A DNA stretch of 50,929 bases, taken from the NCBI GenBank assembly GCA_022508485.1, contig JAFLVD010000006.1, positions 1 through 50,929 of the forward strand, read 5' to 3'. Below, piece after piece: positions 4,433-35,841 of this stretch. A program made the position numbers and the translations under genes. Below the pieces are notes generated by a model, which saw nothing but the letters and a program-made list of their open reading frames with translations, was not told the origin of the DNA and did no database searches. Position 1 is the first letter of the stretch. Every line of letters starts with the position of its first letter. Origin of the DNA: Clostridiales bacterium. Lineage in GTDB: Bacteria; Bacillota; Clostridia; Christensenellales; Pumilibacteraceae.

Positions 4433-6319
4433 TCAGTTCTTTTTGGAAAAAACAAAGTCGCTGAACGTAATAGATCCGCTGTGCGTGTTTGTATCGCCGT
4501 AGGTTGCGGTGTCGAGATAAAGCTGCACGCGCTGAACGGCGCCCATCGGATTTGTATTGCTGTACGTAATCGTAACGGTCGCCTCCTCACCTGCGGCAAG
4601 GGTAATATAAGTTCCGCCCCACTCGGTGTCGGTATAGCAGCCGCTTCCACCTACGTTAGTCGAGGAAAGGTTGCAAACGTCCATGTCTTTATTGCCGCCT
4701 ACGGTAACTTTGCGCTCACCTATAAGGTCGACGCGTACGGTGGCGGACGCCGTGCCGTTATTTTTAATCTTGATAAAGAAGATATTCTTATCCGCCGCAA
4801 GGCTCGTCGCCGGCGCCTGAACGTTTTTATAGGTGCCGCCCGAAATATTATCGTAGGTTACGGTAACGGAATAGGCCGGCTCGCCCGACTTATCCACCGT
4901 AAACTCCTCGGTATTTGTAAAGGTAAGCCGGCAAGGCTCGCCCTCTTCGATTTCGCCTTGATCCTCTTCGCCCGGTTGCGCCACTATACCTTTAAGAGCG
5001 GAAATGGTAATATCGCCCGAGGTAGCTTCCGCTTCGTTAGACGAGTTGAGGAATATGACTATTTGGTCGACGCTTACAGTGCCGTTTATTTTGCACGCAA
5101 CGTCCGCTTCGTCGCCGGCGGCGAGCTTTATAACCGCCGCGCCTGCTGCAAGGTTATACTCCGCACCTTCGTACTCGGATATAACGCTCGAAATTCCGGG
5201 CGTCGAGGGACTTTCCTTTTTGATATCCACGCGGACAACCGCACCGTAACTTGCCGAGTTGTTCTTTATATGAAACTTGACCCACGAATAGCTGGCGGAA
5301 AGTCTCATGCCCGAGCAGGCGTAATCGGAAAGTTTTTCGGTGTGCGACATGCCGATAGTGCCGAGCGCTCCGGACACGGTGTACTTGTTGTCCCAAGCGG
5401 CAAATCCCGACGCGTCGATATCCGTCCAGCCGGTAACGGGCACCTCTTCGGGCGGCTCGGGCGGCGCGACGGTGGGATCGTCCAAAGGGGTGGCGGACGA
5501 AGCGATATACTTATACTCCGCCTTGCCCGAATAGTCCTCGTTAAACTTGCCCATCCAGTTATACGTTTTGTCCGTTCCCGTCCAGTAGTTTGTGAGTATT
5601 CTGCCGGGCGTGGAAGGCAAAGGATTTTTGGCGGAAGCCTTCACCTTGTATACGGGCTCGCCGTCTACGAACCAAACGATATACTCGCTCGTCCAGCGGA
5701 AGCCGTAGGTATGGAAACCCTTCGACGAGTCAAACCCGAGCTTATGGATATGCTCGTGTCCGCCCTTGCCGTTTACAAAATAGTTGAACTGGACGATTGT
5801 CGGGTCCTTGCCGAGAAACTCGATGTCTATCTCGTCGTGAGCGTTGGGCACCTTTGTTTCGTAGTTGACGTCGTACGGGCCTGTGCATACGAAGAAGGTG
5901 CTTGCCGTGCCGGGCACGCTCGACGTTTTCATACTAACCTCGTAATCTCCGTAGCCGTAGTATTCGGACGTACGTATTTCGCCGCCGTAGTACTCGGCCT
6001 GGCAGTCTTCGCCGTCGCCGTTTTTCTCTTTTTCGGTCATCTCGGAAATTGAAAGCGCGGCGACGCCGTTATCGAAGGTTACGTTGTCGGGGTTCCACCA
6101 AGTGTTAAACACGTCGCCGTTTTCAAAGCCGGCGGAAGCGAACACGCCCGATCTGTCGCTTGCCTTTCCCGTCGTGTAGTCGGCAACCTTAGTCGCCGAG
6201 GGCGCGTCGTCGGTGAGCGGTTCTTTCTCCGGCTCGTCGCAGGCCGCAAGCGTTCCTCCTACCAAAGAGAGCGCAAGCGCGGACGCCAAAGCCAAAGCTA
6301 TTGTCTTTTTGGTTTTCAT
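4433..6319 (-). CDS. GH16 beta-glucanase lipoprotein with two C-terminal beta domains
   Basis: The protein has 628 residues. A lipoprotein signal ends at Cys27 (LAAC), so it should be tethered outside the membrane. Residues ~45-270 form a GH16 glycoside hydrolase domain with the hallmark EIDIE: E163 as nucleophile, D165, and E167 as acid/base. GH16 enzymes cleave beta-1,3 or mixed-linkage glucans and some galactans; the exact polysaccharide cannot be read. After a proline-rich linker come two beta-rich regions (about 285-445 and 455-628) that look like carbohydrate-binding modules of no family I recognise. The start is the ATG at 6319, just after AGGAGG; an in-frame ATG 21 bases upstream lacks a ribosome site. 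It is the last gene of an operon with a second GH16 gene and a GtrA-like gene. Confidence 0.92.
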   Translation of the reverse strand: MKTKKTIALALASALALSLVGGTLAACDEPEKEPLTDDAPSATKVADYTTGKASDRSGVFASAGFENGDVFNTWWNPDNVTFDNGVAALSISEMTEKEKNGDGEDCQAEYYGGEIRTSEYYGYGDYEVSMKTSSVPGTASTFFVCTGPYDVNYETKVPNAHDEIDIEFLGKDPTIVQFNYFVNGKGGHEHIHKLGFDSSKGFHTYGFRWTSEYIVWFVDGEPVYKVKASAKNPLPSTPGRILTNYWTGTDKTYNWMGKFNEDYSGKAEYKYIASSATPLDDPTVAPPEPPEEVPVTGWTDIDASGFAAWDNKYTVSGALGTIGMSHTEKLSDYACSGMRLSASYSWVKFHIKNNSASYGAVVRVDIKKESPSTPGISSVISEYEGAEYNLAAGAAVIKLAAGDEADVACKINGTVSVDQIVIFLNSSNEAEATSGDITISALKGIVAQPGEEDQGEIEEGEPCRLTFTNTEEFTVDKSGEPAYSVTVTYDNISGGTYKNVQAPATSLAADKNIFFIKIKNNGTASATVRVDLIGERKVTVGGNKDMDVCNLSSTNVGGSGCYTDTEWGGTYITLAAGEEATVTITYSNTNPMGAVQRVQLYLDTATYGDTNTHSGSITFSDFVFSKKN

Positions 6320-6344
6320 TTTTCCTCCTAATAAAACCATTTTT

Positions 6345-6396: not shown

Positions 6397-7179
6397 TTAT
6401 TGGTTAATCGGTTTGTACGCCACCCACTTATAGTAAGCGACCGCCTCCGAATAGTTTGTCTTATCGTATGTACCCAGCCAGCCCGAAATGTTGTTATCCC
6501 CTTCCGACTTGCCGTTCCACACGTTAAACATTATCTGCGCCCGAGAAGTCGGGATATCTCTTGTTACGCTGTAAACTCCCTTCCCGTCTACGTACCAGGT
6601 TAACTTATTCTCTTCCCACTTAAAACCGTACTCGTGGAAGCCCTCGGAAGCGTCGAAGCCAAGCTCGTACATATATTCGTGCTTGCCTACGCCATTTGTA
6701 AAATAATTGAACTGGACCTTTGTCGTGTCCTTACCGAGAATCTCCACGTCTATCTCGTCCCACTGCGGCCTGCTCGTGTAGGTGAAAAACGAGGTTACCA
6801 CGCCGTTTCGCTTAATCGCTTTAAGCCGAGCGGAAAAGTAACCGTAGCCGTACGAACCGTGGCTTTGATATTCGGCGCCGTAAATCTTGTTTCCGCCGTT
6901 TGTTATTTTAAAGCTCAATGCCTCCGCCTCGTCGTCGAACGCAGCGTTATTGTTTGTCCAATCGCAGTCGAACATTCCGCCGTTGCCGTAACCGTTAGAC
7001 GCTCTGAAAACGTCGAGTCCGGCGCCCGACGTAAAGTCGGCTATTTTATCGTTAATGCCGGTGTACGAATCGACAGGGTCGGTTCCGTCGTTCTTTTTTT
7101 CGGGAGGATTGCACCCGAAAAGCCCGACGGTCATAACCGCGGCAAGACATATCGATACAAATCTTATCGACCCTTTCAC
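6397..7179 (-). CDS. GH16 beta-glucanase lipoprotein, compact form
   Basis: The protein has 260 residues. The signal ends at Cys23 (GLFGC), giving a lipid-anchored extracellular enzyme. Nearly all of the mature chain is one GH16 domain with the catalytic EIDVE (E142, D144, E146) followed by the same GKDTTKVQFNYF context seen in the neighbouring larger enzyme, so the two are paralogues. It lacks the extra C-terminal domains, so it may act on shorter or soluble glucan. The frame is open upstream to 7383, but that part is arginine-rich and overlaps the preceding gene. I take GTG 7179 as start because AAGGAG lies ten bases before it and a typical signal sequence begins there. It follows the GtrA-like gene by 49 bases. 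Confidence 0.88.
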   Translation of the reverse strand: MKGSIRFVSICLAAVMTVGLFGCNPPEKKNDGTDPVDSYTGINDKIADFTSGAGLDVFRASNGYGNGGMFDCDWTNNNAAFDDEAEALSFKITNGGNKIYGAEYQSHGSYGYGYFSARLKAIKRNGVVTSFFTYTSRPQWDEIDVEILGKDTTKVQFNYFTNGVGKHEYMYELGFDASEGFHEYGFKWEENKLTWYVDGKGVYSVTRDIPTSRAQIMFNVWNGKSEGDNNISGWLGTYDKTNYSEAVAYYKWVAYKPINQ

Positions 7180-7228
7180 CGAACGCACACTCCTTTTTTC
7201 CGCCGAGCCTACTCGGCAAAGCAAGCGG

Positions 7229-8248
7229 TTACGCCAAACCGAAAACTCGGTTGTAAACCTCTTCCTTTTCGTTTTTAACTTTAACCGCCTCGACCGCTTC
7301 GCTAAACGCCTTTTCCGACTTTTCGGTAAGGGTCGCCTTTTCCTCGTCGGTCTTGGCCTTTTGTATTCTATCGACTGAGGCAAAGTAGCGCATCGCCTTT
7401 CCGCTTGCCTGCGACTTGGCCTTAGCGTATTCCTTATCCGCGTTGGATTTATCCGCCTTTATTTGCGCGGTCTCGTAAGCGACCTTCGCCTTTTCGATTT
7501 TTTCGGGATCGGCGTTTTTGGCTACTAAGTTATCGTACTTCTTTTTAGCGCGCTTTGCAACGGCGTTGTTGTCGGGGAATATTATCATGAAAATAAAGAA
7601 GAACACTACCATCGACACGCCACCGGTAAGCACCGTCTTTGCAAGCCCGATTACAAGCTCGGGAACGTTCCAATGCAGTAAGAAGGCGTTAGCTACGCCC
7701 CAGAGCGCGTTGGTCGCAACGGACACAAGCACCCAGCCTATAAAGTACCACATGGCCTGGAAATACGGGTTGCCGTGCGAGCGGTACGTAATGTTGCGCT
7801 GAAGCGGAAAGTTTATGCACTGTGCGGTGAAAACCGCTATCTCAAAGCAAATAAACATCGCCCAGCCCTGCTCGTCGCCGAAGATAATAAAGCTTCTTCC
7901 TCCCGCCGCGGCAAGAGGAATCATAGGCCAGCCGACGGCGGCGGTCTTGGGAAGCGCGAGCGGCACCACCGCCATAACTATGTACTGCCAAATGGTAACT
8001 CCCATCGAGAACACGAAAAAGAACACCACTTTGTAGATTAAGTCAGACAGCTTAGGGTGCTTGTCGCAAAACCCGTACCACACGCCAAGCCACTTGCGGT
8101 ATAGGTTTTGGAAAAATCGCACAAATCCGTTACTCGAAAGCGGCTTAATTTGAGCGCGAAGCTCGTCCGCGGTTACCGACGAATCGGCTGATACGGACTG
8201 CTCGTCCGCAGAAACACTTTCGCTCGAAACGACTTCGTCTTCCGTCAT
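7229..8248 (-). CDS. GtrA-like membrane protein with charged coiled-coil tail
   Basis: The protein has 339 residues. An N-terminal serine/acid-rich tail (~50 residues) leads into about four hydrophobic segments (roughly residues 70-92, 118-145, 162-190 and 195-222) with a central NFPLQRNITYRSHG stretch. This resembles GtrA/DPMS-type proteins, which are thought to help move lipid-linked sugars or assist glycosyltransferases. The last ~115 residues are lysine/glutamate/alanine-rich and predicted coiled coil. It is first in an operon with two GH16 genes, suggesting a shared role in surface or extracellular polysaccharide, though the link is only by position. The ATG at 8248 has a GGGGGATC ribosome site. 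The GtrA call is a resemblance, not a certainty. Confidence 0.75.
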   Translation of the reverse strand: MTEDEVVSSESVSADEQSVSADSSVTADELRAQIKPLSSNGFVRFFQNLYRKWLGVWYGFCDKHPKLSDLIYKVVFFFVFSMGVTIWQYIVMAVVPLALPKTAAVGWPMIPLAAAGGRSFIIFGDEQGWAMFICFEIAVFTAQCINFPLQRNITYRSHGNPYFQAMWYFIGWVLVSVATNALWGVANAFLLHWNVPELVIGLAKTVLTGGVSMVVFFFIFMIIFPDNNAVAKRAKKKYDNLVAKNADPEKIEKAKVAYETAQIKADKSNADKEYAKAKSQASGKAMRYFASVDRIQKAKTDEEKATLTEKSEKAFSEAVEAVKVKNEKEEVYNRVFGLA

Positions 8249-8461: not shown

Positions 8462-8490
8462 TTGACAGCCGTATAAATATGTGGTATAAT
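8462..8490 (+). promoter_or_regulatory. Consensus promoter of the redox gene pair
   Basis: TTGACA (8462-8467), exactly 17 bases, then TATAAT (8485-8490) with an extended -10 TG at 8482-8483. This is a full consensus vegetative promoter. Transcription would start near 8497, so the ATG at 8479 cannot be used and TTG 8530 is the likely start. The 8249-8461 stretch between the two divergent promoters holds only a small TCGAAT-AAAA-ATTCGA palindrome at 8398-8413. Confidence 0.88.
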
Positions 8491-8529
8491 TATATTTACT
8501 ATATTCAACTTAATTGTCAGAGGGCAAGC

Positions 8530-9522
8530 TTGACTAAGACGCAGAAAATTCGCTTTATATACGGGATAGTCCTTACGGTTATGACTGTGATTGTAGGCAT
8601 AGCCTTTATAATCGCGGCGTCTCAACTGTATTACAGCGGAAAGGACGCCGGTTATCCGTATGAGATAAGCCGCATAAAGGAATATATACTCGTTCCGTTC
8701 GTTTTTTTGCTTTGCTGGATTGCGGCGATTATCGGCGGCGCGGTAATTTGCATAATCTTCCCTCTCGCCGAAAAAAAGAACGTTGGGTCTGACAGCCTTA
8801 CCCTGCTAAACAGGTACAAGTCCCGTATGCCTGCTTCGGGCGGCGAGGAATACGCCGACGCAAAAGCCGACATGTCAAAGTACGAAATAATCCGAAGCTT
8901 TATTTGGGGCGCGGCTTTTACTCTGTTTCTTGCGGTCGCAATCGTTATATTCGTTTATGCGTTCAATATCACACACTTCCACACCGACACGCTTTTAGAC
9001 GATATACTTAACCTTGTTAAAAACGTTCTTACCTGGACGGCGGCGGCGGTGGCCGTGGGAATAGCCGCGGCGGTGGTCGACGAGGTTTTACTTAAACGCG
9101 AAATAGCCGCCGCAAAAACGGCGATAGCAAAAGGCGACAAGTCCACTCCGCCGCTTACAAAAGAAGTTAAAAAAGGGATAATAACCTTAGCAGCGGTTTT
9201 GGCGTCTGTCATAACGGGCGTTGCACTTATAGCGTACATTGTTGCGCCTTTTATCGTTCAAACCGCTTACACCGTCTCGCAGACCGTTATATACGTTATT
9301 GTGTTTGTTGTTGCCGCGCTTACAATAATCGGCTTTACGGTATACAACATAATTAAGCGGTACATCCCTGACAAAGTAAACGGAATACTTCTTATAGTCT
9401 CGCGCGCCGCGGTCGGCGCGGTCGCGATAACCTTTATTGTCTTGGGCGTACTGAACGGCGGCGCTAACGACGTGCTTACAAAAGCAATCGCAATCTGCAC
9501 CGAGTGCATAGGACTGGGGTGA
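8530..9522 (+). CDS. Multispan membrane protein with C-terminal CD1871A-like CxxC tail
   Basis: The protein has 330 residues from TTG 8530, six bases after AGAGGG. About seven hydrophobic segments lie near residues 8-31, 51-77, 125-148, 165-187, 220-245, 252-278 and 290-312. The last ~40 residues end in AICTECIGLG, with C323 and C326. This closely resembles the small clostridial CD1871A family of CxxC proteins, which from memory sit next to polyferredoxin and TlpA-type genes. Here that module seems to be fused to a larger membrane protein of unknown function. The next gene starts four bases later and encodes a polyferredoxin-TlpA fusion, so a thiol-disulfide or electron-transfer role is inferred. 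The first 290 residues match nothing I know. Confidence 0.8.
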   Translation: MTKTQKIRFIYGIVLTVMTVIVGIAFIIAASQLYYSGKDAGYPYEISRIKEYILVPFVFLLCWIAAIIGGAVICIIFPLAEKKNVGSDSLTLLNRYKSRMPASGGEEYADAKADMSKYEIIRSFIWGAAFTLFLAVAIVIFVYAFNITHFHTDTLLDDILNLVKNVLTWTAAAVAVGIAAAVVDEVLLKREIAAAKTAIAKGDKSTPPLTKEVKKGIITLAAVLASVITGVALIAYIVAPFIVQTAYTVSQTVIYVIVFVVAALTIIGFTVYNIIKRYIPDKVNGILLIVSRAAVGAVAITFIVLGVLNGGANDVLTKAIAICTECIGLG

Positions 9523-9526
9523 GCAA

Positions 9527-11281
9527 ATGAAAAACTTTTTCCTTTCCGTAAAAAATTGGATAGTTCGCCACCTACCCACAAAGCGCCGACTTATTCAGGT
9601 GTACGTTGCGCTTCTTTATAACGTTAACTTTAAAGGTTTTGCAAACGGCACTATTTTTCAAGGCAACAGCAAGTATGCGTGCGTGCCGGGGCTTAACTGC
9701 TATTCGTGCCCGGGCGCGATAGGCGCATGTCCGCTTGGCGCGCTTCAAAACGCGTTCGCCCAGTCGGGGACTCGTGCGCCGTACTACATACTGGGAATAA
9801 TAGGATTGTTCGGGCTGCTGTTTGCACGGACGATTTGCGGCTTTCTCTGCCCCGTCGGACTGTGCCAAGAGCTGATTCACAAAATCCCCTCGGTCAAGAT
9901 TAAAAAGGGCCGCGCGACGCGCGCTCTGTCGTACTTAAAGTACGTGCTTCTCGTGGTTTTGGTTGTTGCGCTTCCCGTGATGTACGGCTTACAGGGAATA
10001 GCCGTCCCGGCATTCTGTAAATTCATCTGCCCCGCCGGAACGTTCGAGGGCGGAATCGGGCTTATCAGCAACCCCCTCAACTGGTCGGGAAGTCGGGATT
10101 TACTCGCGCAACTCGGCAACATATTCACCTGGAAGTTCTGCGTACTTATAACGTTTATAGTGCTTTGCGTATTCCTGTACCGTCCGTTCTGCCGTTTTAT
10201 TTGTCCGCTCGGCGCGATTTACGGGTTCTTTAATAAGATATCGTTTATCGGCGTCAAGGTGGATAAAATCAAGTGCATTGACTGCGGACTGTGCGTAAAG
10301 CACTGCCAAATGGACGTTAAGCACGTCGGCGATCACGAATGCATAAACTGCGGAAGATGTATAAGCGTCTGCCCCGTAAAAGCGATATCCTGGAAAGGCT
10401 CGGGACTGTTCGACAAGCTCGACCAAAAAGAGGAAGAAAAGAAAGAGGAAAAGCCGGCGCCGACGCCCGTACTTAAATCGGTTGCGCCCACGCCTGTGCT
10501 TGCGACCGCCGCTACGCAAAACGGCGCACCTAAAATAAAATCAACCATTCCCCCTCCGTACATGCCGGTAACCTTTATGTCGGCAGCGGCGGCGGAACCC
10601 GAAGCGAACAAATCAACAAACGAGGACGGCGATATAGAATTCCGTTCGGGCGCGCCGCCCCCTGCGGAAAAGAAAGCTCGACCAAAATCGTTTTGGATTC
10701 AGGTCGCGGCATGGTGCGTCGCACTCGTTGCGTTTATAGGTGCGGTACTGTACTACAACGTATTTACCACCACGGAAGAGATTAACGACATGCAAATAGG
10801 CACCGAGTGCCCCGACTTCTCGCTTAAAACTTACGGTAAAGGCTCTACGGGAAGCTACAAGCTGTTGGACGACACGTTCACGCTAAGCGAGCAGCGCGGA
10901 AGCGTAGTCGTAATAAACTTCTGGGCCACCTGGTGCGGCCCGTGCGTCGAGGAAATCCCCCACTTTAACAAGGCGGCAACCGAATTCCCCGACGTAAAGG
11001 TAGTTGCGATACACGGCAAATCCACCGAAAGTGTTCCGCAGTTTATAATCCGTCCGACGGATACAAAAGAAAGCTGGCGCGATTACAATCTTATATTCCT
11101 TCAAGACGACCTGGACGGTCAAACGTGTCTGACTTTTAAAGCGCTCGGCGGCAACGCTACATGGCCGATGACGCTTATAGTAGACGCCGAAGGCAAAATA
11201 TCCTTTACCCGTCAAGGCAAACTAAGCTACGAAGATCTTGTAAAGGAAATACAAAAAGCGCAAAACGCACATACAAATTAA
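9527..11281 (+). CDS. Membrane polyferredoxin fused to a TlpA thioredoxin domain
   Basis: The protein has 584 residues. The N-terminal half is a NapH/YccM-like 4Fe-4S membrane protein: a cysteine cluster in GLNCYSCPGAIGACP near residue 60, membrane helices with CGFLCPVG and CRFICPLG motifs, then two [4Fe-4S] sites, CIDCGLC...C (250-259) and CINCGRC...C (272-282). A proline- and lysine-rich linker (~300-385) leads to another helix (~388-410) and a C-terminal TlpA/thioredoxin domain with WCGPC (C470, C473), placed outside the membrane. The design suggests electrons pass from cytosolic iron-sulfur clusters to extracytoplasmic disulfides. It is translated just after the CxxC membrane protein and ends at a terminator (11316-11343). 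The family link is firm; the electron path is inferred. Confidence 0.9.
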   Translation: MKNFFLSVKNWIVRHLPTKRRLIQVYVALLYNVNFKGFANGTIFQGNSKYACVPGLNCYSCPGAIGACPLGALQNAFAQSGTRAPYYILGIIGLFGLLFARTICGFLCPVGLCQELIHKIPSVKIKKGRATRALSYLKYVLLVVLVVALPVMYGLQGIAVPAFCKFICPAGTFEGGIGLISNPLNWSGSRDLLAQLGNIFTWKFCVLITFIVLCVFLYRPFCRFICPLGAIYGFFNKISFIGVKVDKIKCIDCGLCVKHCQMDVKHVGDHECINCGRCISVCPVKAISWKGSGLFDKLDQKEEEKKEEKPAPTPVLKSVAPTPVLATAATQNGAPKIKSTIPPPYMPVTFMSAAAAEPEANKSTNEDGDIEFRSGAPPPAEKKARPKSFWIQVAAWCVALVAFIGAVLYYNVFTTTEEINDMQIGTECPDFSLKTYGKGSTGSYKLLDDTFTLSEQRGSVVVINFWATWCGPCVEEIPHFNKAATEFPDVKVVAIHGKSTESVPQFIIRPTDTKESWRDYNLIFLQDDLDGQTCLTFKALGGNATWPMTLIVDAEGKISFTRQGKLSYEDLVKEIQKAQNAHTN

Positions 11282-11315
11282 ACGGCGGAACAAACCCAAT
11301 AAATATAACAGCATA

Positions 11316-11343
11316 AAAAGAAGAGGCGCTCGCCTCTTCTTTT
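11316..11343 (+). terminator. Terminator of the polyferredoxin-TlpA transcript
   Basis: GAAGAGGCG (11320-11328) pairs with CGCCTCTTC (11331-11339), extended by an A-run and a T-run (TTTT). It lies 38 bases after the stop codon. The short region between it and the next terminator carries ATCGGCAC/GTGCCGAT (11358-11365 and 11409-11416), a spaced inverted repeat of unknown meaning. Confidence 0.85.
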
Positions 11344-11431
11344 GTTTTGCGTGAAATCATCGGCACGCTTTCCCCCATCGACACAAAAAGCTACTATTCT
11401 ACGTTAATGTGCCGATATCTAAACCGCAAAA

Positions 11432-11465
11432 CAAATCGGACCTGCGTATTCGCAAGTCCGATTTT
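11432..11465 (-). terminator. Terminator of the TlpA-lipoprotein operon
   Basis: CAAATCGGAC-CTGCG pairs with CGCA-AGTCCGATTTT around a TATT loop. On the minus strand the stem is followed by a T-rich run. It lies about 35 bases after the stop at 11501 and faces the convergent terminator at 11316-11343. Confidence 0.75.
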
Positions 11466-11500
11466 GGTTTGTTATGTTTTTATCGGAGTGGGAGTTTTCT

Positions 11501-14101
11501 CTATTTCGAATCGGAAACAGTAAAGCTGACGTCGTTAGAGCTTGCCGTCCAGGAATCGTTAACCATTACGGTAATGGTAATCTCGGACGCACCGGATACG
11601 TCCAATCCGTTCTTTAACAGTTCGGCGTCGGCGTCGTCTCTGGACGAAAGGTATCTGCCGTTAACAACCACCAATATTGCCGTATTGTCGTCCCAGTCGA
11701 AGTACAGGGTCGAAATACCCGAGATCGATAACAAGTAGTTAACGTCGTCGTACTTATCGTTAAGCGAGCTCGCGTATTGTTTAAGCTCGGTTATTACAAT
11801 CGGGTTTTCGGGCGAACCTTCCTCGTAATTGAACTGAACGTCCAAATACACGGTGTAGCTGTCGCCGGTCTCGTCGAGCGTTGTAAACTCCATAAGGATG
11901 TCGCCGAAGTAGCCGAGAACAAGCGTGAAAGAACCGTCGTTGGAGGTATAGGAATCGCTCAACACGTAGCCGAGCGTATCCATACTGAACTCGTAAATGT
12001 TAAGCTTAACGTTGTTCGAGTCGGAAGTAAGAGTGTAAGTGCCTGCGCCGTCCACAAAAATCGAATAGAACACGCCGCCGCCGTCGGGAACGACAACGTC
12101 GAAGTGGTCGTCGTCTTCCGAGATTGTGAAGGGGTTAAACATCGAGCCTAACGGCGAGGAAGCAACGGTAAAGGTGAAAGAGCTGTCCGATATAGACACG
12201 AGAACGACAATCCTGCTTATGTCGGCTACGGATAGTCCGTCCGCAAGCTCGGCAAACGTTTTGGTATGTACGGTGTCGGAAGTGTCGGTGTAGGACACGG
12301 AAACGATAGCGGCGTTATCGCCGTTGTAGAAGTAAAGCGTAGTCTCGTCGGTTACGTTGTAGAAGTAGTAAACCTGTTCGACGTCGGGATAATCTTCGAC
12401 GTAGCCGTACTGCGTGCCGACGCTCGAAATCTCGAACGGATGATCTAAGGATCCGTCCGGCTCATTTTCCGTTAGCGTTACGTAAATATCGTAGTTTTCC
12501 GCTTGACCGTTAACGGTGGAAAATACGAGGTAGTACGGAGTGAATGCCTCCGGCTCGAAAGAGGCATAGAAGCCGCCTGCGGTCGACTGAACGGTGGTAA
12601 GCACTTGAAGCTCTCCGTCCTCGCCGATTCCTTTTACCGTAAGAAGAACGTTTGTAGAGGCGGACTCTATCTCGCAGGTAACCTCGCCGAAAACAAGCGC
12701 AGAGTAAACAACCTCGCCGCCCGTGGGAACCTTAACGGTGTGAGTGCCTTCGGTTAAGGGGTACGGATCGTCGACGGTGCCGGCCGGCACTACGTAGAAG
12801 CCGCACCATACAAGCCACTCCTCGCCTTCGGGAAGCGTGGTGTAGTACATGGACTGCATCCACGACTCGAAACCTGTTTTTTCGATATAAACTGTAAAGA
12901 ATTCGATAAGGTCGTCGGTTAACGGGTAACGACCTTCGTCGTTGGATTTGTCGGTATACGCTTCGACGAGCGGATAGTAGTTTTTGCTTACGCCGTCGAC
13001 GCTGAACGTAAAGGCTTGACCCTGTTCGTGGATAGCCGTAAACGAGTCGTTAAGCCCGTAAGGCGTAACGGACCCTTTTCCGAGCGTGGCGTACAAAACG
13101 GCGCCGCTCGAAGTGCGGTATTTGCCGTCGGCGCTTTTTTCGTACTCGAAGGAACCGTCAAGGTCGGCCTCGACAAAGTAGCCGTCGTGATTTTCCTGTT
13201 GGGTAAGCGTTACCGAGGGGGTAACGTCGACGACTTCCTCTTCCGGCTCTTCCTCGTATTCTTTAACGAACTCGAAGCAGATTAGAGAGTCTTTGTTAAC
13301 GTCGGCCGCGTTTTCAAGCGAGACCTCGAAGTACGATAAAGCGATGCCGCTGTCGTTCATGCTGAAGTTGGAAGGATCTACCACAAAATCGAGCGAGAAG
13401 TTTTTGTTTGTAGAGGAAATGTTATCGTTACTGAACTCGCTGCCGCCGGAGTGTAGTCCTGTCATAATCGAGCCGAGATACTGCGTAACAGATAAGTCCG
13501 CCTCGCCGTACGAATACACTTTGTAAAAACCTTCCTCATACGCTTCGTAAGCGAAGTATATGTTTTGGTTGACGGAAGTGAACTTAACGGCGTACGCACC
13601 GTTGCCTACAACGTACGGGTCGAACGCCTCGAGATCGAACAAAACGTTACCCAAAGCGTCCTCGACGTATCTGCCCGCGCCGGTACCACCGGAGGGCTTA
13701 TTAAGCTTATCGCCCGACTTAACCGAAACGGTAATGGTAGTCTTTGCTCCCCTCTTTATTCTCGGCGCCGTGTACGTAAGGTACGCCGGAAGTCCCAAAA
13801 GGTGAACCTCTATAAGGTTCGCTTTTTTATCGGGAATGGTTTTGCCGATTTCGAGCACCGCAACGCCGTTAGCGTCGGGCTTAACGCCCTCGTAGCACGC
13901 GCCGAGCGCGCCGTTGGATTCCACTATGCACGGCTGAACAAGTGCGTCGGTGTACGGATTGCCGGCCTCGTCCACTACGGTTACCGTGTAGGTAGTCGCG
14001 GTGTTTTCGGGCTTGTTATCGCATGCGGTAAACGCAAACACGGAAAGCGCCGCAACGACAGCCAACAAAACAATCGAAAGCTTTTTTGCTATGTTTTTCA
14101 T
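11501..14101 (-). CDS. Repeat lipoprotein with PPC-like beta domains
   Basis: The protein has 866 residues. The signal ends at Cys27 (FTAC), so it is lipid-anchored outside. Next comes a CnaB/Ig-like segment (~34-125: VVDEAGNPYTDALVQP), then several copies of a beta-rich unit introduced by similar short motifs: DDPYPLTEGTH, DGSLDHPFEI, LGSMFNPFTI and GSPENPIVI. They resemble bacterial pre-peptidase C-terminal (PPC) domains, which usually aid binding or secretion of extracellular proteins. I see no catalytic motif. The ATG at 14101 follows AAGGAGA. It is co-transcribed with, and starts 32 bases after, the TlpA-domain lipoprotein gene, so the two products may work together at the cell surface. 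Its ligand is unknown. Confidence 0.85.
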   Translation of the reverse strand: MKNIAKKLSIVLLAVVAALSVFAFTACDNKPENTATTYTVTVVDEAGNPYTDALVQPCIVESNGALGACYEGVKPDANGVAVLEIGKTIPDKKANLIEVHLLGLPAYLTYTAPRIKRGAKTTITVSVKSGDKLNKPSGGTGAGRYVEDALGNVLFDLEAFDPYVVGNGAYAVKFTSVNQNIYFAYEAYEEGFYKVYSYGEADLSVTQYLGSIMTGLHSGGSEFSNDNISSTNKNFSLDFVVDPSNFSMNDSGIALSYFEVSLENAADVNKDSLICFEFVKEYEEEPEEEVVDVTPSVTLTQQENHDGYFVEADLDGSFEYEKSADGKYRTSSGAVLYATLGKGSVTPYGLNDSFTAIHEQGQAFTFSVDGVSKNYYPLVEAYTDKSNDEGRYPLTDDLIEFFTVYIEKTGFESWMQSMYYTTLPEGEEWLVWCGFYVVPAGTVDDPYPLTEGTHTVKVPTGGEVVYSALVFGEVTCEIESASTNVLLTVKGIGEDGELQVLTTVQSTAGGFYASFEPEAFTPYYLVFSTVNGQAENYDIYVTLTENEPDGSLDHPFEISSVGTQYGYVEDYPDVEQVYYFYNVTDETTLYFYNGDNAAIVSVSYTDTSDTVHTKTFAELADGLSVADISRIVVLVSISDSSFTFTVASSPLGSMFNPFTISEDDDHFDVVVPDGGGVFYSIFVDGAGTYTLTSDSNNVKLNIYEFSMDTLGYVLSDSYTSNDGSFTLVLGYFGDILMEFTTLDETGDSYTVYLDVQFNYEEGSPENPIVITELKQYASSLNDKYDDVNYLLSISGISTLYFDWDDNTAILVVVNGRYLSSRDDADAELLKNGLDVSGASEITITVMVNDSWTASSNDVSFTVSDSK

Positions 14102-14133
14102 GTAAACTTCTCCTTTTTAAGATTACTTGTTAT

Positions 14134-17100
14134 TTATTCGGCAGGGCCGAAATACTCGTAGTGAGCGCAAAGGCGCAGCCAGTCTGTATCAAGCTCGGGG
14201 AAGCCGCCCACGCGCTTGCAGAACATATCGAGCGCGTCGCGGAGAGGCTCTGTGAGCTTTACGCAGCCCTTGTCGGCATAGCGGCGGTTGGGGTCGCCGG
14301 TATTGGCCTTTGCGTCGTTGTAGTACTGACGGATAAGCGGCGTATAGTCCTTATACCTATCGGGATCGATGTTGTACTTGTCGTCGTAGAGTATAAACGT
14401 CTGATCGTACAGGTTAAGGTAGAAGTTGATAAGGAAGTCCGCAAGCTCGCCTACCGTGCCGCGAGACGTAACCGCCGCGAGCATTGCGTCGCCGTCGATA
14501 TATGCGGTGTCGCCGTAGGTGTTGAAAATTTCGGTAAGTATGCTTATCCAATCATCTTCGTTAAGTGCCGTGCCTTTAATTTCGGCGAGACCGTTTCGCT
14601 CGGTCCAGCCGCCCGACGGCTTGGTTTTGTTCCATACCCTTGCAAAGATATCGTTAAGCGTTTTGATTACCTGATTTCTGTCGCTGTAAGTAAACACAAG
14701 CTCGAGCGAGCCGTATTCAAAGAAGCGCGCACCGGTAAGAAAGTCGACGTAGATAGGGTCGTTGGTATTGGCAACGTACTCGCCGTTAACCTTAATATAT
14801 TGACCGTTAGCATTCTTTTTGGCGTTGTAGTATATGCCGTCGTCGCCGAGCACGGGCTGAACGTACATGATGTTGGTTACCTGGGTCATACTGTCGTCCG
14901 TGGTTGTAAAGAGGTTGGACGCGGCGAACTGCCATGCGTAGTAGGTAGGTCCGAGATATTCCACGGTAAAGGTGTACTCGCCCGTACCGTACATATCAGC
15001 AAAGCACGTAGCAAGAATGTACTTCTCGCCGGCTTTAAGATAGTAGGTTATAATAAAGTTGTACGTTTCGTCGGGGTTTTCAAGCTGACTATCCGAGGTT
15101 GCCAAATACACCTCGGCAGGGGCGTCATATTCGGACAGCCAAGCCATAGTGTCGGACAGCTCTTTGCTCTGCGAGCGGAAACGGTATACGCCGTCCTGTT
15201 CCGGTACAAACAGATACTTAAAGCCGCGAGGTACTATAAGCCTTGTAAGAAGGACTTTGTTTTTATATTCGTTAGGAATGTTATTTAGGTCGAGTTCCCC
15301 GTCGTAAGGTGCGACCGTAGGCACCGCGGTGGAATTAAGCAAGCCGCGGATAGGGTTACGTTCGGGCCTGTTAATGCCGGCGTCGCTCTTATCCGTGCCG
15401 TAGTGGTCGAAGTATCTGCAATATTCGAGCCACATCTTGTCGTTATACTTGTTGCCCACCTGCGTCTTAATGAATTTTTCAAGAAGCGCTTTAAGCTCGT
15501 CGTTTATAAGCGTAAGGCCGTAAAGCTCGGAGTTGTTTGCCGCCTGCGCCCATACGGTTATGGCGTCGGTATCGTCCAAATCGGGATTGTAGTTGGGGTC
15601 GTCGGTATCGTCCGTGGTGTTGTAGTTAAAGTAGCCGTTAATGGCAAACTCGGAAATACCCCACGAGGTGGTAAGGCGCTTATTAAACGCGCTTACGCCC
15701 ATCAATTCCGCAAGAATGTACGGACCGTCGGCCGATCCCATGTGGTAGAAGCCGTCGGCGTCTTTTACTACGGAAACGTACGTATTAAAGTCGTTGCCGT
15801 CCCAGTCGCGCGCCGCCTCTCTCGGCATGTCGAGCGACGGTATATCGATCTGCGGTATGGAGAGCATACGCATGTTCTTTATACGCACCGTGTCGGCGCC
15901 CTCCGACTGCTGCTCGTCCTTAACGAACATAAGACACAGCACGTACTCGCCCGGCTCGGTAGCGACAAGCGCGAAGCACGATTGCCATTTACCCCACTGC
16001 TCTGTTCCCGTGTACTCGTAAACAAGCGAGTTGTTTACGATAACGTAGAAGTAGTCGTAAAGGTTTTCGCACGCCCATTGAAGATCGAACGCAAGCACGA
16101 CCTTGCCGTTTTCGTCCGCAATGTCCGCGGCGGAGATGTTCACTTTGGTGTATATGGTCGCAAACGAGTAGTTAACGCCGGTGTTTGCCGGATAGATATA
16201 TTTTTCGTTGTTGGTCTCGCCTACAAGCCACGGCCACGAATATTCCGCGTCATCCGTTTCCGTCTCGGGATAGTACGAGCCGGTAAAGCCGGTGCCGTTA
16301 ATCGCGGCTTCTATCTCGGACGAAGCGGGCTGGGAAACGTTGGGCTTTTCACGCTCGAGTTCATCCTTCGGTTTATCGGGATTCTCTTCGTCGGGTAATT
16401 TATCCTGAACGTAGTTGTCCGAGGTGTATTTTTCGAACAGTTTTCTGAACGTCGGCCTATCCATGCCTCCGACGTGGATAAGCGCTATAACGCCGTAACG
16501 GTCGACAACGACGGAAACGGGAATGGCGTCCATTGCAAAGTGGTACGGCATTTCGTTGTCGTCGATTGCAAGCGGATACGTTAAGCTGTACGGATTCATG
16601 TCGTCGTCGTAGTACGTCGCGTTTCTGTATTGTCTTATATTCGCAATTCTGTCAACGCCGAGAAGCGGCACGTCTATACCGAACACTTCGGCCTGCGATT
16701 TAAATTCTCTGTAAACAAGCTCGAGGTCGGGCATTTCCTCAACGCACGGACCGCAGTTTGTATTCCAAAAATTTAGAAGCACCATTCTCTTGCTTTCCAG
16801 AACGGTGGAAAGCGTATAGGTAACGGGGTTATTCCTGTCCGTCTCGTCGGTTATGGAAAAGTCGTAGATAACGTCCCCCTGCTTATATATTTTGTCCGAG
16901 GGAATCGTATCCTTAATAACCGAGGATGTCGCATGGATAAGCAAAGAGAGCTTATCCGCAGAGGTTTTGTAGACGTTGGCATCGTCAAGCTTGTAGCCGA
17001 GCGGAAGATTGTCGACAGCAACGTCGTAAACGCCTTTTTCGGCGCTGAATGTGTACTTACCGTTTTTATCCGTCTTACCCGAAGCCACCTTCGAGTCGGA

Positions 17101-17268
17101 CGAAGTAACCGTAACGGAAACGTCCTGCAAGCCGAGACCGCCCATACTCGTAACGTAAATCGAATACGTGGCTTTTCCGTTGTCGTTGCAGCTGCAACCG
17201 ACAAGAACGGGTAACACCAAAAGTGCGGCGCAAATCAAAAACAATATTAGTTTTTTAAGTCTGTTCAT
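14134..17268 (-). CDS. Large lipoprotein with TlpA thioredoxin domain
   Basis: The protein has 1,044 residues from ATG 17268, which follows a GAGGTG ribosome site; the frame is open 25 codons further but without a site. The signal ends at Cys25 (VLVGC). Residues ~30-100 form a CnaB-like regulatory beta domain. Residues ~120-300 form a TlpA/ResA-like thioredoxin fold with NCGPC (C172, C175). TlpA proteins reduce or rearrange disulfides outside the membrane. The remaining ~700 residues are extracellular: beta-sandwich regions plus two copies of a helical motif ending WLEYCRYFDHYG and WLRLCAHYEYFG, each with a cysteine that could be a redox target. It heads a two-gene operon and lies opposite the polyferredoxin-TlpA gene, which could reduce it. 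Its substrate is unknown. Confidence 0.88.
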   Translation of the reverse strand: MNRLKKLILFLICAALLVLPVLVGCSCNDNGKATYSIYVTSMGGLGLQDVSVTVTSSDSKVASGKTDKNGKYTFSAEKGVYDVAVDNLPLGYKLDDANVYKTSADKLSLLIHATSSVIKDTIPSDKIYKQGDVIYDFSITDETDRNNPVTYTLSTVLESKRMVLLNFWNTNCGPCVEEMPDLELVYREFKSQAEVFGIDVPLLGVDRIANIRQYRNATYYDDDMNPYSLTYPLAIDDNEMPYHFAMDAIPVSVVVDRYGVIALIHVGGMDRPTFRKLFEKYTSDNYVQDKLPDEENPDKPKDELEREKPNVSQPASSEIEAAINGTGFTGSYYPETETDDAEYSWPWLVGETNNEKYIYPANTGVNYSFATIYTKVNISAADIADENGKVVLAFDLQWACENLYDYFYVIVNNSLVYEYTGTEQWGKWQSCFALVATEPGEYVLCLMFVKDEQQSEGADTVRIKNMRMLSIPQIDIPSLDMPREAARDWDGNDFNTYVSVVKDADGFYHMGSADGPYILAELMGVSAFNKRLTTSWGISEFAINGYFNYNTTDDTDDPNYNPDLDDTDAITVWAQAANNSELYGLTLINDELKALLEKFIKTQVGNKYNDKMWLEYCRYFDHYGTDKSDAGINRPERNPIRGLLNSTAVPTVAPYDGELDLNNIPNEYKNKVLLTRLIVPRGFKYLFVPEQDGVYRFRSQSKELSDTMAWLSEYDAPAEVYLATSDSQLENPDETYNFIITYYLKAGEKYILATCFADMYGTGEYTFTVEYLGPTYYAWQFAASNLFTTTDDSMTQVTNIMYVQPVLGDDGIYYNAKKNANGQYIKVNGEYVANTNDPIYVDFLTGARFFEYGSLELVFTYSDRNQVIKTLNDIFARVWNKTKPSGGWTERNGLAEIKGTALNEDDWISILTEIFNTYGDTAYIDGDAMLAAVTSRGTVGELADFLINFYLNLYDQTFILYDDKYNIDPDRYKDYTPLIRQYYNDAKANTGDPNRRYADKGCVKLTEPLRDALDMFCKRVGGFPELDTDWLRLCAHYEYFGPAE

Positions 17269-17513: not shown

Positions 17514-19439
17514 TTAATTCCCGTTACATTTTTTAATCTCTCTTACCGAGTAGTTTTTGCCGTAAAGCGCATTTGCAAGCTTAATTATTATCGGCATATT
17601 ATAAAGCGGCAGCTCGTCCTCTTTGTCGAAATCCCGTCCGGTTAGAGCGGTAAGCTCATTTATGTAACGGTTGTCGAGCCGCGCGTTTTTCTTTTTCAGC
17701 TTGTCGCCCAGCCGACCCTGTTTTATATCCGATATAGGCAAATCCGTCCAGCCGTTGCCGCGCATAAACACTTCGTAACGCTTATTTTCGTGTGCGCGCA
17801 AAGTAGCGACGTTCGCTTTGTCGGAGAGCTTTTCTTCCAAAAGTCGAACGTCCCCCTCGCCGTCGTCAGTCAGTTCAAGACCAAGTAGGTGCAGCTTGTA
17901 CGGAATAGACACCGCAAATCCGTCCGAAAAGTCTTTAAAGAAAATAACCTGATTGTAAATGTCGGTAAGTACTGCCGGCGTGTACCTTTCGTTAAGCTCG
18001 GTAACGCCGCAGTACGCCGCGTTATGCGCGACGGCGAGACAGTCGAGGTACGACGCGCTTATCCTCAAATCGCTGTAAGTTTCCTCGTAGCTGCCGAACG
18101 GCTTAATCCCGAGCGAACCGATAAACTCGCTTTTGTGTTTGAGCGAGTCCTCGTCGTACGTCCAGTACGACACGCACAGATTGGGAAGAATCTGTTCCTC
18201 GATACGCTTATGGTCGACAAGCGCGTGAATGTGCGGCAGTCCGTTTTCCATGCCGTAGAATCTTCTTATATAAATTGCCGTTTCGAGGTTGCGGTTAAGA
18301 TTGCCGAGCGCAAGCACTATGTACGTCGGCTTTATCTTCCCGAGGATTTCGGTAAACTCGGACGAATTGATATCGGCGGTGTGGAATTTAATGTACATCT
18401 TTTCGCGGAGAGATGGCGCCGTTTTATCGAAAGCGGACTGCGCCTTATCGCCGTACATATCGACTACGTTAATCTCTGCTTCCACGCCCTCACCGAGGCA
18501 CGAACAGTGCGCTGCGACGCGAACAATCTCAAGCCCGATACTTCCGCTGCCCACGACGAGAACGGACAATTTGCCCCCTTCTACGGCGTTATACAGCGGA
18601 TAATCAGACACAAGCCGCCGAGCGATAAGCTTTTCCTCGTTTATAAGCCTAACGTTAAAGGTTTCGTACAGGTGGTCGAAAATCACCTCGGAAATCTCGT
18701 CGTTGGTGTAAATCCACATGTTTACGTTAGACGTTTGAGCGCCGTTGTACTTTTTGTACAGCCTGAGTCCGGCGTCGAGGTTTGCCGTGCTGTCGGCGCA
18801 AAACATGTAGTAATTGCGCTCGCGTTTCAGCGAGTGGTTTATGTTAACTATATCGTCGCTTATAATGCTTGCGCCGATGCTTTTTATTCGGTCGAGCGAG
18901 CCGGCGTCGACGTCGTTTTTGTCGGTACGAACGGCAAACACGATAACAGGTTTTTTGTTTTTGCGCGCAATATCCTCCGCCGCGCAAAGCGTGCGCTCGT
19001 TAATTTCGGAAAACAGGTACGTCGGCTTATACGACGAGCGTATACGGTACAGAAGCCTTGTGAACTTGTCCGAGAAAAACGAAAGCGTAATACCTACGGT
19101 AAAGAGCGGCGCGATAATAAGCAGCGCAAGCACTACTCCCTTATAAAAATCGATAAATCCCAGCGTATAGCCGTCGAACGCCGAAAGTATGGCGCCGGCG
19201 TCGGCGTTAAGAAGCATTGCGCACATACTCTGAACAAGCGCAAGTCCCAAAGCGTAACTCTCGCCTTGTATCGAGTACGACGGGAAAATCATGGCGACGA
19301 GCATTAAAAACACGCCTGCGCCCAAAATACGCACAATGCGTTTAAGATTGCGCCTGGCGAGCACGGCAAAGGTAACGCTAGCACCCAAAACCGCAAGCGC
19401 AATAACAGAACATAAAATTATAATCGCTTTGTCCGACAT
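17514..19439 (-). CDS. Membrane protein with TrkA-N-like Rossmann domain
   Basis: The protein has 641 residues. About four hydrophobic segments occupy residues ~5-130 (for example 5-27, 36-57 and 100-125). A large cytosolic part follows. It contains one Rossmann-like region near residues 140-230 and a clear dinucleotide-binding loop VVGSGSIGLEIV near residue 300 (GxGxxG), as in TrkA-N/RCK domains that bind NAD(H) and gate ion transport. There is no recognisable potassium-channel filter, so it is not a plain Kch-type channel. The last ~130 residues are charged and unfamiliar. It is the third gene after nadE and a Sel1 protein, so a nucleotide-responsive membrane role is plausible but inferred. 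The ATG at 19439 follows AAGGAAAG. Confidence 0.75.
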   Translation of the reverse strand: MSDKAIIILCSVIALAVLGASVTFAVLARRNLKRIVRILGAGVFLMLVAMIFPSYSIQGESYALGLALVQSMCAMLLNADAGAILSAFDGYTLGFIDFYKGVVLALLIIAPLFTVGITLSFFSDKFTRLLYRIRSSYKPTYLFSEINERTLCAAEDIARKNKKPVIVFAVRTDKNDVDAGSLDRIKSIGASIISDDIVNINHSLKRERNYYMFCADSTANLDAGLRLYKKYNGAQTSNVNMWIYTNDEISEVIFDHLYETFNVRLINEEKLIARRLVSDYPLYNAVEGGKLSVLVVGSGSIGLEIVRVAAHCSCLGEGVEAEINVVDMYGDKAQSAFDKTAPSLREKMYIKFHTADINSSEFTEILGKIKPTYIVLALGNLNRNLETAIYIRRFYGMENGLPHIHALVDHKRIEEQILPNLCVSYWTYDEDSLKHKSEFIGSLGIKPFGSYEETYSDLRISASYLDCLAVAHNAAYCGVTELNERYTPAVLTDIYNQVIFFKDFSDGFAVSIPYKLHLLGLELTDDGEGDVRLLEEKLSDKANVATLRAHENKRYEVFMRGNGWTDLPISDIKQGRLGDKLKKKNARLDNRYINELTALTGRDFDKEDELPLYNMPIIIKLANALYGKNYSVREIKKCNGN

Positions 19440-34900: not shown

Positions 34901-35822
34901 TGTCGTTGGTAACGGGGATAATCTCGTCGCCGCGCCTAATCTCGAAAAGCGATTCGAGCAATATGTTTTCGCTGTGCGGATAAATAACTACGTCGCGCGA
35001 GGAAAGCGTATACGTTAAATCCTCGACGATACGGACGCGAACGGATGAGGTGTACGTCGTGCCGTCCTTTACGTACGAAAACCCGACGGAAACGGTGTCG
35101 CCCACGCCGGCGGACGAAACCGCGCTCGTATCGAGCATCGAGGTCGTTACTTTTTCCGCCTTACCATCTACGTACAGCGAGAACAAAAGCGTATAGTCGT
35201 ACGAGCTTACCTCGCTCTCTTCGAGCGTTTTAAGCGTGTAGCTCGGCACGACGATAACGTCGTCGATAACGTGAACGATAACGGTTTTAGTTACTCCGCC
35301 GAACGTAACCGAATAGGCATAAGTGCCGGCTGCGGCAACGACGGTGCTTGTAATCATGCTGTCCGTTATGCTCTGTCTTTCGCCGTCCTTTTTGAGCGTG
35401 AACATGCTCTTAAAGTCGTAGGTCGGGACCTGAGAGGTTAATATCGTAATTTCGGTCTCTGTAACGTCTACCGTGTATACTGTGCCCACGACGCGGACTT
35501 TTGCATTAGCCGACTGTCCGCCGTAAGAACACACTACGTTATAGCTTCCCTCCGCCGCAACGACCTCGCTGCTGTCGATGTATTCGGACTTTACCGCGAC
35601 CACCTTGCCGTCCGAAATAATGGAAAACATGTAGGTGTAGTCGTAACCCTCGACGTCGGTATCCTTTATGGTAATGTTATCGTACTTAACCGAAATGCTT
35701 ACCTCATGCTTGCCGGTATCGACGGGAGTGCCCGGCGAATCCGTTTTCGTGCAAGCGGCAAAAACCGATACCGTCGCGATAAGAGCGATAAGCGCCGATA
35801 TTAAAAAGTATCGTTTTTTCAT
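31974..35822 (-). CDS. Ig-like repeat lipoprotein
   Basis: The protein has 1,282 residues. The signal ends at Cys24 (VFAAC). Residues ~30-610 hold about six ~90-residue Ig-like units with the pattern ...YDYTYMFS..., ...G.Y.vtv..GG... and a closing valine-rich strand; each contains a ...SMI/MIS... turn. A flexible tyrosine-rich stretch (GDYGDYYYS) near 640 follows. Residues ~660-1282 are beta-rich modules with DGYG strands like those of the next lipoprotein downstream. No enzyme motif is visible. The start is ATG 35822, after GAGGAA; the frame is open 12 codons further without a site. It is part of the operon that continues from the S8 protease, after a hairpin at 35842-35875. Confidence 0.88.
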   Translation of the reverse strand: MKKRYFLISALIALIATVSVFAACTKTDSPGTPVDTGKHEVSISVKYDNITIKDTDVEGYDYTYMFSIISDGKVVAVKSEYIDSSEVVAAEGSYNVVCSYGGQSANAKVRVVGTVYTVDVTETEITILTSQVPTYDFKSMFTLKKDGERQSITDSMITSTVVAAAGTYAYSVTFGGVTKTVIVHVIDDVIVVPSYTLKTLEESEVSSYDYTLLFSLYVDGKAEKVTTSMLDTSAVSSAGVGDTVSVGFSYVKDGTTYTSSVRVRIVEDLTYTLSSRDVVIYPHSENILLESLFEIRRGDEIIPVTNDMISGAVNYSQAGEYVITLTAFNQSVTATVTVEAGVIVKSVKDVIYVQKDADKSLYAFSNDFTLVINGVKYFAIPEEFFAGLDEVDFSTEGDYTVTLRIPYNVNGIGVGRPPEFSYTECEVTYAVRAVIGVANAIDPVVTLIRGNTYNVFNNVYATVNGRRMALTADRNGANVLYVYADVKSEPIDFDSTEVQHVEIDVYVNGVDEAPVTVEYDVSIRDDVVITARDTSVFTGATLFTTELFEVVKNGAAIEVTADMISGKVDTFNPGVYAVTLELGGVSATSLVTVFDRRLMGSYKTGLTPIPTTDDDDDYDDGEYGDWGDYGDYYYSAAPKNSSVEQSAVSTTLKDMVVSDDGTMTVNGYTATLLGGIDESTLVIRFGNNDYTLYYIDGVVVLDPDNRIKLGFSDVKRPLVYFNEEIWTLDKSIVINYGSNYVLTGTTTMYSFDIFHIVRTDGTGDKWFGLYVELAVKNASDTIYDVKWGDVIFADGFNAASGTESSFTFGGEKYSFTMENAKTGKIIKDNDTSKYAGQNFTGTVDGKSARLEVSASSQYVLKIEGNTVFSFGLMEKNNTKNWYEDRETDTLFLYQFDEKKYSYTFKLNTDNNIFTIVDRDVYYGLYEAEGRYLYLDGYGTGMFKPNPASYETYRLRYTVNGDVLTITYIRTKPNFEYGTSAEFYIGEFLNTLKVKRFETNLFDGVLLQNSIISDGAIVTLSKYRFGAAIGSKTADGVKADIRDSIKIITKDGEVSAADKASSSANGYVDLTKVSAQYSGYYRLSVTVTVGGEKVTSYYSIQIVKGTLEANNPLVGEYEGICFAGYDFTIGANGQIELNASGTNYFGYSEADGDGLKFKAYSENGGTIVGEVKSISTNAIILTVGGSFNFTDYYVKKSLGSSRVAGISGTVLREITITGVGKIYVLSSSKASTGEIVTLTSMTGGVENDSVVKIETADGSVKYVKIIKWGDTAEGISILSNYEE

Positions 35823-35841
35823 AACTAATTCCTCAAAAAGC

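Follow-up and report, generated by a model that had tools for sequence, protein, structure and literature searches.

Breaking the disulfides of exported proteins is usually the work of CcdA or DsbD, and how anaerobes without the DsbD_TM domain keep their exported thiols reduced is not clear. That question is raised by a locus of a Clostridiales bacterium (assembly GCA_022508485.1, contig JAFLVD010000006.1, positions 1–50,929, the whole of which stretch of 50,929 nucleotides (nt) we call the window), in which two adjoining genes, here A and B, encode a membrane protein with a CxxC tail and a polyferredoxin fused to a TlpA domain, while two lipoprotein genes, C and D, lie on the opposite strand and are convergent with them. 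We propose that the A/B cluster is a trans-membrane thiol-reducing relay, running from ferredoxin through 4Fe-4S clusters to the CxxC tail, from there to TlpA, and finally to the disulfides of surface lipoproteins—a reading to which we give a probability of roughly two-thirds. An earlier note, written from the nucleotide letters alone, had likewise envisaged a trans-envelope redox system at this position; the conserved operon and the predicted topology speak for that idea, the lipoprotein arm has less support, and the flow of electrons is something that we infer.

Genes A and B and their counterparts across Clostridia

The core of the locus comprises four features:

8479–9522, + strand: open reading frame (ORF) A, a predicted membrane protein of 347 residues (aa) with seven transmembrane helices and a C-terminal CD1871A domain; the true start is likely near 8530
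9418–9519, + strand: CD1871A domain of A (match to profile NF040920), predicted to face outside
9527–11281, + strand: ORF B, 584 aa, in which a NapH-like polyferredoxin is joined to a TlpA domain (Fer4_5, two Fer4 motifs, TlpA)
10796–11227, + strand: TlpA/Redoxin domain of B, predicted outside, with CGPC at residues 470–473 (10934–10945)

A and B follow each other head to tail with a gap of 4 nt, and the TTG start near 8530 that we favor for A agrees with the length (332 aa) of the L004 and L005 homologues. The profile NF040920 matched the final 34 residues of A (314–347) with 38.3 bits against a cut-off of 32, which result makes A a member of the CD1871A family and bears out the earlier description of a membrane protein with a CD1871A-like CxxC tail. 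This domain is usually a stand-alone short protein (mostly with an open frame of 40–90 aa in the class sample described below); in A it is the tail of a 347-aa fusion. A Pfam scan of A gave no match, and the portion upstream of the domain (8479–9417, + strand) has similar proteins, grouped by clustering, at 57 of 80 polyferredoxin loci.

The domains of B are arranged as a NapH-like membrane ferredoxin, two 4Fe-4S motifs, a further transmembrane segment, and an AhpC-TSA/TlpA domain at residues 424–559 that contains the CGPC, so that the fusion of a polyferredoxin to a TlpA domain, placed outside by the predicted topology, was recognized correctly in the earlier note. Fer4_5 (PF12801) was matched with 41.8 bits against a cut-off of 22, and this match, together with the CX3CP motifs and the two C-terminal 4Fe-4S motifs, identifies B as a NapH-like membrane ferredoxin; the top NCBIfam match, NapH/MauN TIGR02163, reached 64 bits with a cut-off of 213, leaving B outside NapH/MauN proper. 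Likewise, the TlpA domains of B and C are of the TlpA/ResA kind—an AhpC-TSA/Redoxin domain with a CxxC, the CGPC being followed in both by V-E-E—and score below ResA proper (NF002854, cut-off 170; 61.0 bits for B and 52.1 for C).

If, as one alternative, the membrane module were a quinol-linked carrier of the NapH type serving a respiratory enzyme, with TlpA merely assisting maturation, that best NCBIfam match would fit, as would the diversity of reductases that NapH-like modules feed, as far as the available text of PMC8238504 describes them. Against it stand the score below the cut-off and the distribution of the UbiA prenyltransferase, which was not found in the organism's own genome (controls positive) and was found in 3 of 61 relatives (in two over the cut-off), from which near-absence we see no sign of own quinone synthesis and judge quinol unlikely as a donor; moreover, neither an FMN (flavin mononucleotide)-binding domain nor a respiratory reductase was found among the seven window proteins scanned with Pfam. 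We therefore regard a NapH-type carrier as quite improbable. CcdA or DsbD as the membrane step was ruled out, in that DsbD_TM (PF02683) had no match in A or B and none in the organism's own genome (96% complete), the control genomes being positive in 10 of 14 instances.

The CD1871A and polyferredoxin parts travel together, as the earlier note had expected. In a class sample of 391 genomes, searched with a polyferredoxin profile at a threshold of E 1e-30, CD1871A was present in 71 and the polyferredoxin in 72, both occurring in 70, one alone in 1 and 2, respectively, and neither in 318 (Fisher 5e-74, uncorrected for relatedness). At the 74 polyferredoxin places of these genomes, CD1871A lies directly upstream (−22 to +289 nt) in 69, is fused at the polyferredoxin C-terminus in 2, and is missing from 3, one of which is on a short contig. 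TlpA is fused at 4 of the places and adjacent on the same strand at 53 (0–322 nt); a further five have an adjacent TlpA gene interrupted by an in-frame TGA and were for that reason counted as present, giving a total of 62 of 74, versus 0 of 20 for a TlpA ORF in control regions of 11 kb taken from 20 of the polyferredoxin genomes. Among 61 relatives, A and full-length B (E < 1e-100) were found in the same 16.

The separate genes can be seen in four order-level relatives (L019–L022), which carry a TlpA, a CD1871A protein of 45–62 aa, and a polyferredoxin, whose match in L022 is in two pieces. A plasmid search returned 17 records, only one of which, from Peptoclostridium acidaminophilum, covered most of the query; its annotations name a TlpA family member, a CD1871A family CXXC protein, and a 4Fe-4S binding protein; an opposite-strand major facilitator superfamily gene separates the first two. 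The lists of matches that we used hold the best 120 of 5372 and, for a fused query, the best 120 of 7999, in 81 of which latter 120 the CD1871A tail is fused onto the polyferredoxin, making this second kind of fusion a frequent one. From 569 confirmed loci we retained the best 80 as further loci, a set that for this reason leans toward window-like loci, and obtained a recognized polyferredoxin ORF from 70 of them. TlpA shares that ORF in 66 of the 70 versus 4 of the 74 places class-wide; the fusion in B is thus as unusual as the earlier note had held when the class is considered, though not among the nearer relatives.

A three-gene operon encoding a 4Fe-4S protein, a TlpA, and a CxxC protein has been described in several Clostridia as uncharacterized, and the available text of that report suggests a role in redox homeostasis and raises the reduction of extracellular or surface targets (PMC12637426, a preprint of 2025). 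A and B together hold all three of its domains: The pair represents, in fused form, a three-gene unit that is widespread and composed of TlpA, CD1871A, and polyferredoxin.

Cysteines, topology, and the predicted path of the electrons

The cysteines on which the proposal depends are distributed as follows:

9496–9507, + strand: CxxC at the C-terminus of A (C340, C343; tail alignment), followed by only IGLG
9680–9730, + strand: cysteine quartet of B (C52, C58, C61, C68), predicted outside and absent from Escherichia coli YccM
9836–9850, + strand: CX3CP motif of B (C104/C108), predicted at the inner face from alignment and topology
10016–10030, + strand: CX3CP motif of B (C164/C168), predicted outside and absent from YccM
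10190–10204, + strand: CX3CP motif of B (C222/C226), predicted at the inner face from alignment and topology
10274–10372, + strand: two 4Fe-4S ferredoxin motifs of B, predicted cytoplasmic from Pfam, alignment, and topology

Topology was predicted from hydropathy and the positive-inside rule, the first helix of B, which is below the hydropathy threshold, being counted in by eye. The seven predicted helices of A separate loops with 4, 3, 8, 1, 8, 0, 3, and 1 lysines plus arginines, in that order, and because of this alternation the CxxC end is predicted outside. In B the ferredoxin domain, C104/C108, and C222/C226 are predicted inside, with C52 to C68, C164/C168, and the TlpA domain outside. 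All 18 polyferredoxin cysteines are invariant in 13 of 13 homologues (alignment A1), and this constancy, along with that of the TlpA pair of C given below, upholds the earlier expectation that the cysteines of the linked proteins be conserved; among the 60 rows of matches listed, solved structures match that alignment only in its ferredoxin part and the flank adjoining it. As a separate observation, the polyferredoxin relative without CD1871A at L150 (2943–4076, +) and L151 (3129–4262, +), which retains C58, C61, C68, and the outer CX3C, is, by eye, one of a series of genes that includes ones resembling those for chorismate synthase and shikimate kinase.

The tail is equally constant. CxxCxGxG was found in 149 of 152 aligned tails (the 74 class places, genome G228, and the 80 further loci) and in 145 of those 149 no residue follows the motif, the CxxC being intact at 70 of the 74 class places and at all 80 further loci. 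G228, which is the only class genome with CD1871A and no polyferredoxin, has lost both tail cysteines, and its match (27.6 bits) is below the cut-off.

In addition, certain of these cysteines appear to be replaced by selenocysteine. No TlpA gene was called at 17 places; five of these, all of one family, have an adjacent TlpA gene broken only by an in-frame TGA, which codon takes the position of the first active-site cysteine (W-x-x-U-x-x-C) and would be read as selenocysteine; a sixth candidate is a CD1871A gene of genome G156:

L193, 3301–3924, − strand: TlpA gene with active-site TGA (predicted selenocysteine), followed by a conserved hairpin sequence
L196, 4379–5008, − strand: the same
L200, 4430–5041, − strand: the same
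L201, 3043–3648, − strand: the same
L209, 1673–2338, + strand: the same
L204, 5004–5138, + strand: CD1871A gene in which TGA replaces the codon of the first tail cysteine (predicted selenocysteine; genome G156, which has SelB)

SelB was over the cut-off in all six genomes tested from the family with these TlpA genes but not in G000 or G050. Some 20 nt past the TlpA UGA begins a hairpin sequence that is conserved in all five loci, L193 having a single base pair altered in both of its partners. The stretch of 51 nt that starts at the UGA folds better than shuffles that were not codon-preserving (z −1.6 to −3.6), but its best fold contains the conserved hairpin in only 2 of the 5 loci, a different pairing winning in the other 3. 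The G156 tail reads ...KAVRV-U-LECIGIG; the fold downstream of its UGA was not better than shuffles (z near 0), with no convincing selenocysteine insertion sequence (SECIS) fold, and no TlpA was found beside that gene. Rfam reported a SECIS in none of the 6 loci. UxxC selenoproteins resembling thiol-disulfide isomerases are a known class, according to the available text of PMC13188914. The predicted selenocysteine forms, five in TlpA and one in the tail, together with the cysteine loss in G228, suggest from sequence a catalytic use of the TlpA and tail cysteines; because of the selenocysteine variants we take TlpA to carry out thiol chemistry, and the tail probably to do so too. Near two of the selenocysteine-TlpA loci, thiamine pyrophosphate riboswitches were noticed (L196, 6799–6899, −; L200, 6925–7025, −).

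In the relay that we propose, cytosolic ferredoxin would likely deliver electrons to the two putative cytoplasmic clusters of B, and these electrons may cross the membrane on 4Fe-4S clusters, from the inner CX3CP site to the outer cysteines. At the external CxxC tail of A they would be turned into a dithiol, which could then reduce the TlpA domain of B, that domain in turn the TlpA of C, and the latter such clients as D, the direction being presumably that of outward reduction.

Two other readings of the same carriers need to be considered. If the tail CxxC instead supplied two ligands of an outer Fe-S cluster together with the outer CX3CP of B, TlpA would be reduced straight from the cluster, as in ferredoxin-thioredoxin reductase. 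The six outer cysteines of B (52, 58, 61, 68, 164, 168) plus the tail pair make eight, by count enough for two 4Fe-4S sites, and the tail adjoins or is fused with B; selenocysteine, however, is commoner in catalysis than in cluster binding, and the selenocysteine predicted in G156 in place of the first tail cysteine—a single genome, with a SECIS fold at z near 0—argues against a ligand role, which we hold to be unlikely. If, alternatively, the flow were inward, TlpA and the tail would form disulfides from surface thiols, with the polyferredoxin sending the electrons back to the cytosol. The carriers are reversible; ferredoxin is nevertheless a strong reductant in anaerobes, ResA acts as a reductant, and both TlpA domains carry CGPC-V-E-E, that of C being closest to the ResA fold. 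Inward flow accordingly seems to us very improbable.

The lipoproteins C and D and the weight of the contrary evidence

Opposite A and B, the convergent pair comprises:

14134–17268, − strand: ORF C, a lipoprotein of 1,044 residues (lipobox cysteine C25) with an immunoglobulin (Ig)-like part, a TlpA domain, and a long beta-rich C-terminal part
16417–16878, − strand: TlpA domain of C, with CGPC at residues 172–175 (16744–16755)
11501–14101, − strand: ORF D, a lipoprotein of 866 aa lying 32 nt behind C (ORF layout)
13895–13930, − strand: cysteine pair C58–C69 of D (VQxC...C), a candidate client disulfide; contrary control, cysteine enrichment p 0.36

The lipobox, the CGPC, and the close spacing of D confirm the convergent operon with a giant TlpA lipoprotein that had been read from the letters, and apparent repeats in D were seen by eye. 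In a VIA-align comparison covering mainly the TlpA domain of C, that domain comes nearest in fold to ResA, and its cysteine pair is kept in 37 of 38 homologues. Foldseek aligned C to the C-terminal domains of Mycobacterium tuberculosis DipZ (5cyy, 2hyx) over 349–399 columns, a match that we call loose because the root-mean-square deviation is 17–18. The structure in those two entries has more than one domain, among them a TlpA-like one, and the membrane part of DipZ is CcdA-like.

The link of C and D to the A/B relay is weaker than the core, and the results that weigh against our proposal begin here. C and D might be mere neighbors that share a lineage with B and accept none of its electrons. 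Among the 14 relatives having both genes, C is less than 5 kb from B in only 5 and more than 25 kb away or on another contig in 9, and G009 and G012 have C without B. Nor did the D position reveal any excess of cysteines: A test of enrichment failed (7 versus 44 other lipoproteins, p 0.36), the 7 being those of 9 D-position proteins that passed a crude lipobox filter, which filter admits some membrane proteins among the 44. On the other side, C occurs in 14 of the 16 relatives with B versus 2 of the 45 without, its TlpA cysteines are conserved as stated, and 24 of the 80 further loci have an extra TlpA ORF of 391–1199 aa beside the core, whose passengers, which may or may not be related, fall into a single connected group at E 1e-5 and into three and six groups at 1e-10 and 1e-20, respectively (a Pfam scan covered 14 of these 24 large ORFs). 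We lean against mere neighborhood, while considering it a serious possibility.

As to the core, the contrary points are these. The co-occurrence tests ignore kinship, and 12 of the 74 polyferredoxin places had no TlpA found nearby, 3 of them lying at contig ends or on a short contig. In G260 and G301 a polyferredoxin relative keeps most of the outer cysteines and has no CD1871A, so that a strict tracking of those cysteines with CD1871A was not borne out. An AlphaFold2 model of a natural polyferredoxin-CD1871A fusion (P0121; alignment A2, 86 of the best 120 of 7999 matches of the fused query) had a predicted local distance difference test score (pLDDT) of 52.6, for which reason it yields no cluster or contact geometry. 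Finally, 22 of the 71 CD1871A genomes carry DsbD_TM as well, and since this domain is rare across all 61 relatives—over the cut-off in 5 and in none of the 16 with A and B, a match in G020 being below the cut-off and most of those without A and B lacking it also—there is no sign of a one-for-one replacement there. In the whole class, DsbD_TM is present in 196 of 391 genomes, with no match in 195; those 22 of 71 compare with 174 of the 320 without CD1871A (p 4e-4, not tree-corrected), a tendency and not a rule.

The window holds other proteins of note. Two neighboring glycoside hydrolases of family 16 are encoded at 4433–6340 (−) and 6397–7383 (−), the latter resembling the beta-glucanase BglS (237.9 bits, below the cut-off of 300). 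Beyond C, 17514–19439 (−) encodes a 641-aa protein with a hydrophobic start and only weak matches to nicotinamide adenine dinucleotide-binding families. Of a row of large proteins (25635–31784, 31974–35858, 35903–38368, and 38398–40794, all −), three have matches of the repeat, Ig-like, or fibronectin type, and one has no Pfam match. At 40794–48284 (−) lies a subtilase of 2,496 residues with BspA-type leucine-rich repeats; a protein in L111 (1–6965) shares its domain make-up and represents a cluster with members in 10 of 80 polyferredoxin loci.

Relation to known systems and meaning for the Clostridia

The closest precedent is the operon of PMC12637426, which unites the same three parts as A and B; there they are separate genes whose mechanism is not worked out in the available text, whereas here we find the fusions of TlpA with polyferredoxin and of CD1871A with the seven-helix protein, along with a further TlpA lipoprotein. 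The pneumococcal CcdA-Etrx-MsrAB2 system, as outlined in the available part of PMC3914529, likewise passes cytosolic electrons to an external lipoprotein of the TlpA fold and on to a surface client. The membrane step of CcdA/DsbD, in contrast, is a thioredoxin-fed cysteine shuttle, and here would be an Fe-S protein without DsbD_TM. With the NapH-like systems (PMC8238504; RdhC/PceC, PMC5928378, each as far as its available text goes) B has in common the CX3CP membrane module and, with NapH and NosR, the two C-terminal 4Fe-4S motifs; B differs in its extra outer cysteines (the quartet and a third CX3CP) and in being partnered by TlpA and CD1871A, not by an FMN-binding domain, and TlpA is not mentioned in the main text of PMC8238504. 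By analogy alone, the conversion of one-electron Fe-S chemistry into a dithiol recalls ferredoxin-thioredoxin reductase, which enzyme is, however, soluble and cytosolic.

Literature searches returned nothing on CD1871A by name, on TlpA with polyferredoxin and thioredoxin, or on a mechanism for a unit of the A/B type. The mechanism, the fusions, the selenocysteine forms, and the lipoprotein arm thus appear to be new, the unfused operon being already in print. That the whole constitutes a new route for reducing power—from ferredoxin through 4Fe-4S clusters, a C-terminal CxxC tail (with predicted selenocysteine in one genome), and a chain of TlpA domains that ends at giant surface lipoproteins—and may be the anaerobes' counterpart of CcdA/DsbD across the Clostridia is a broader proposition, to which we give even odds.

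According to the available text of the same preprint, the stool abundance of the 4Fe-4S protein encoded in the unfused operon predicts immune side effects when melanoma is treated by checkpoint therapy (PMC12637426). Some 18% of the class sample (72 of 391 genomes) carry the polyferredoxin. If the proposal is true, the relay would be, to our knowledge, the first Fe-S-based trans-membrane thiol reductase, and a testable wiring, with named cysteines and candidate clients, would turn a marker of checkpoint therapy into biology.

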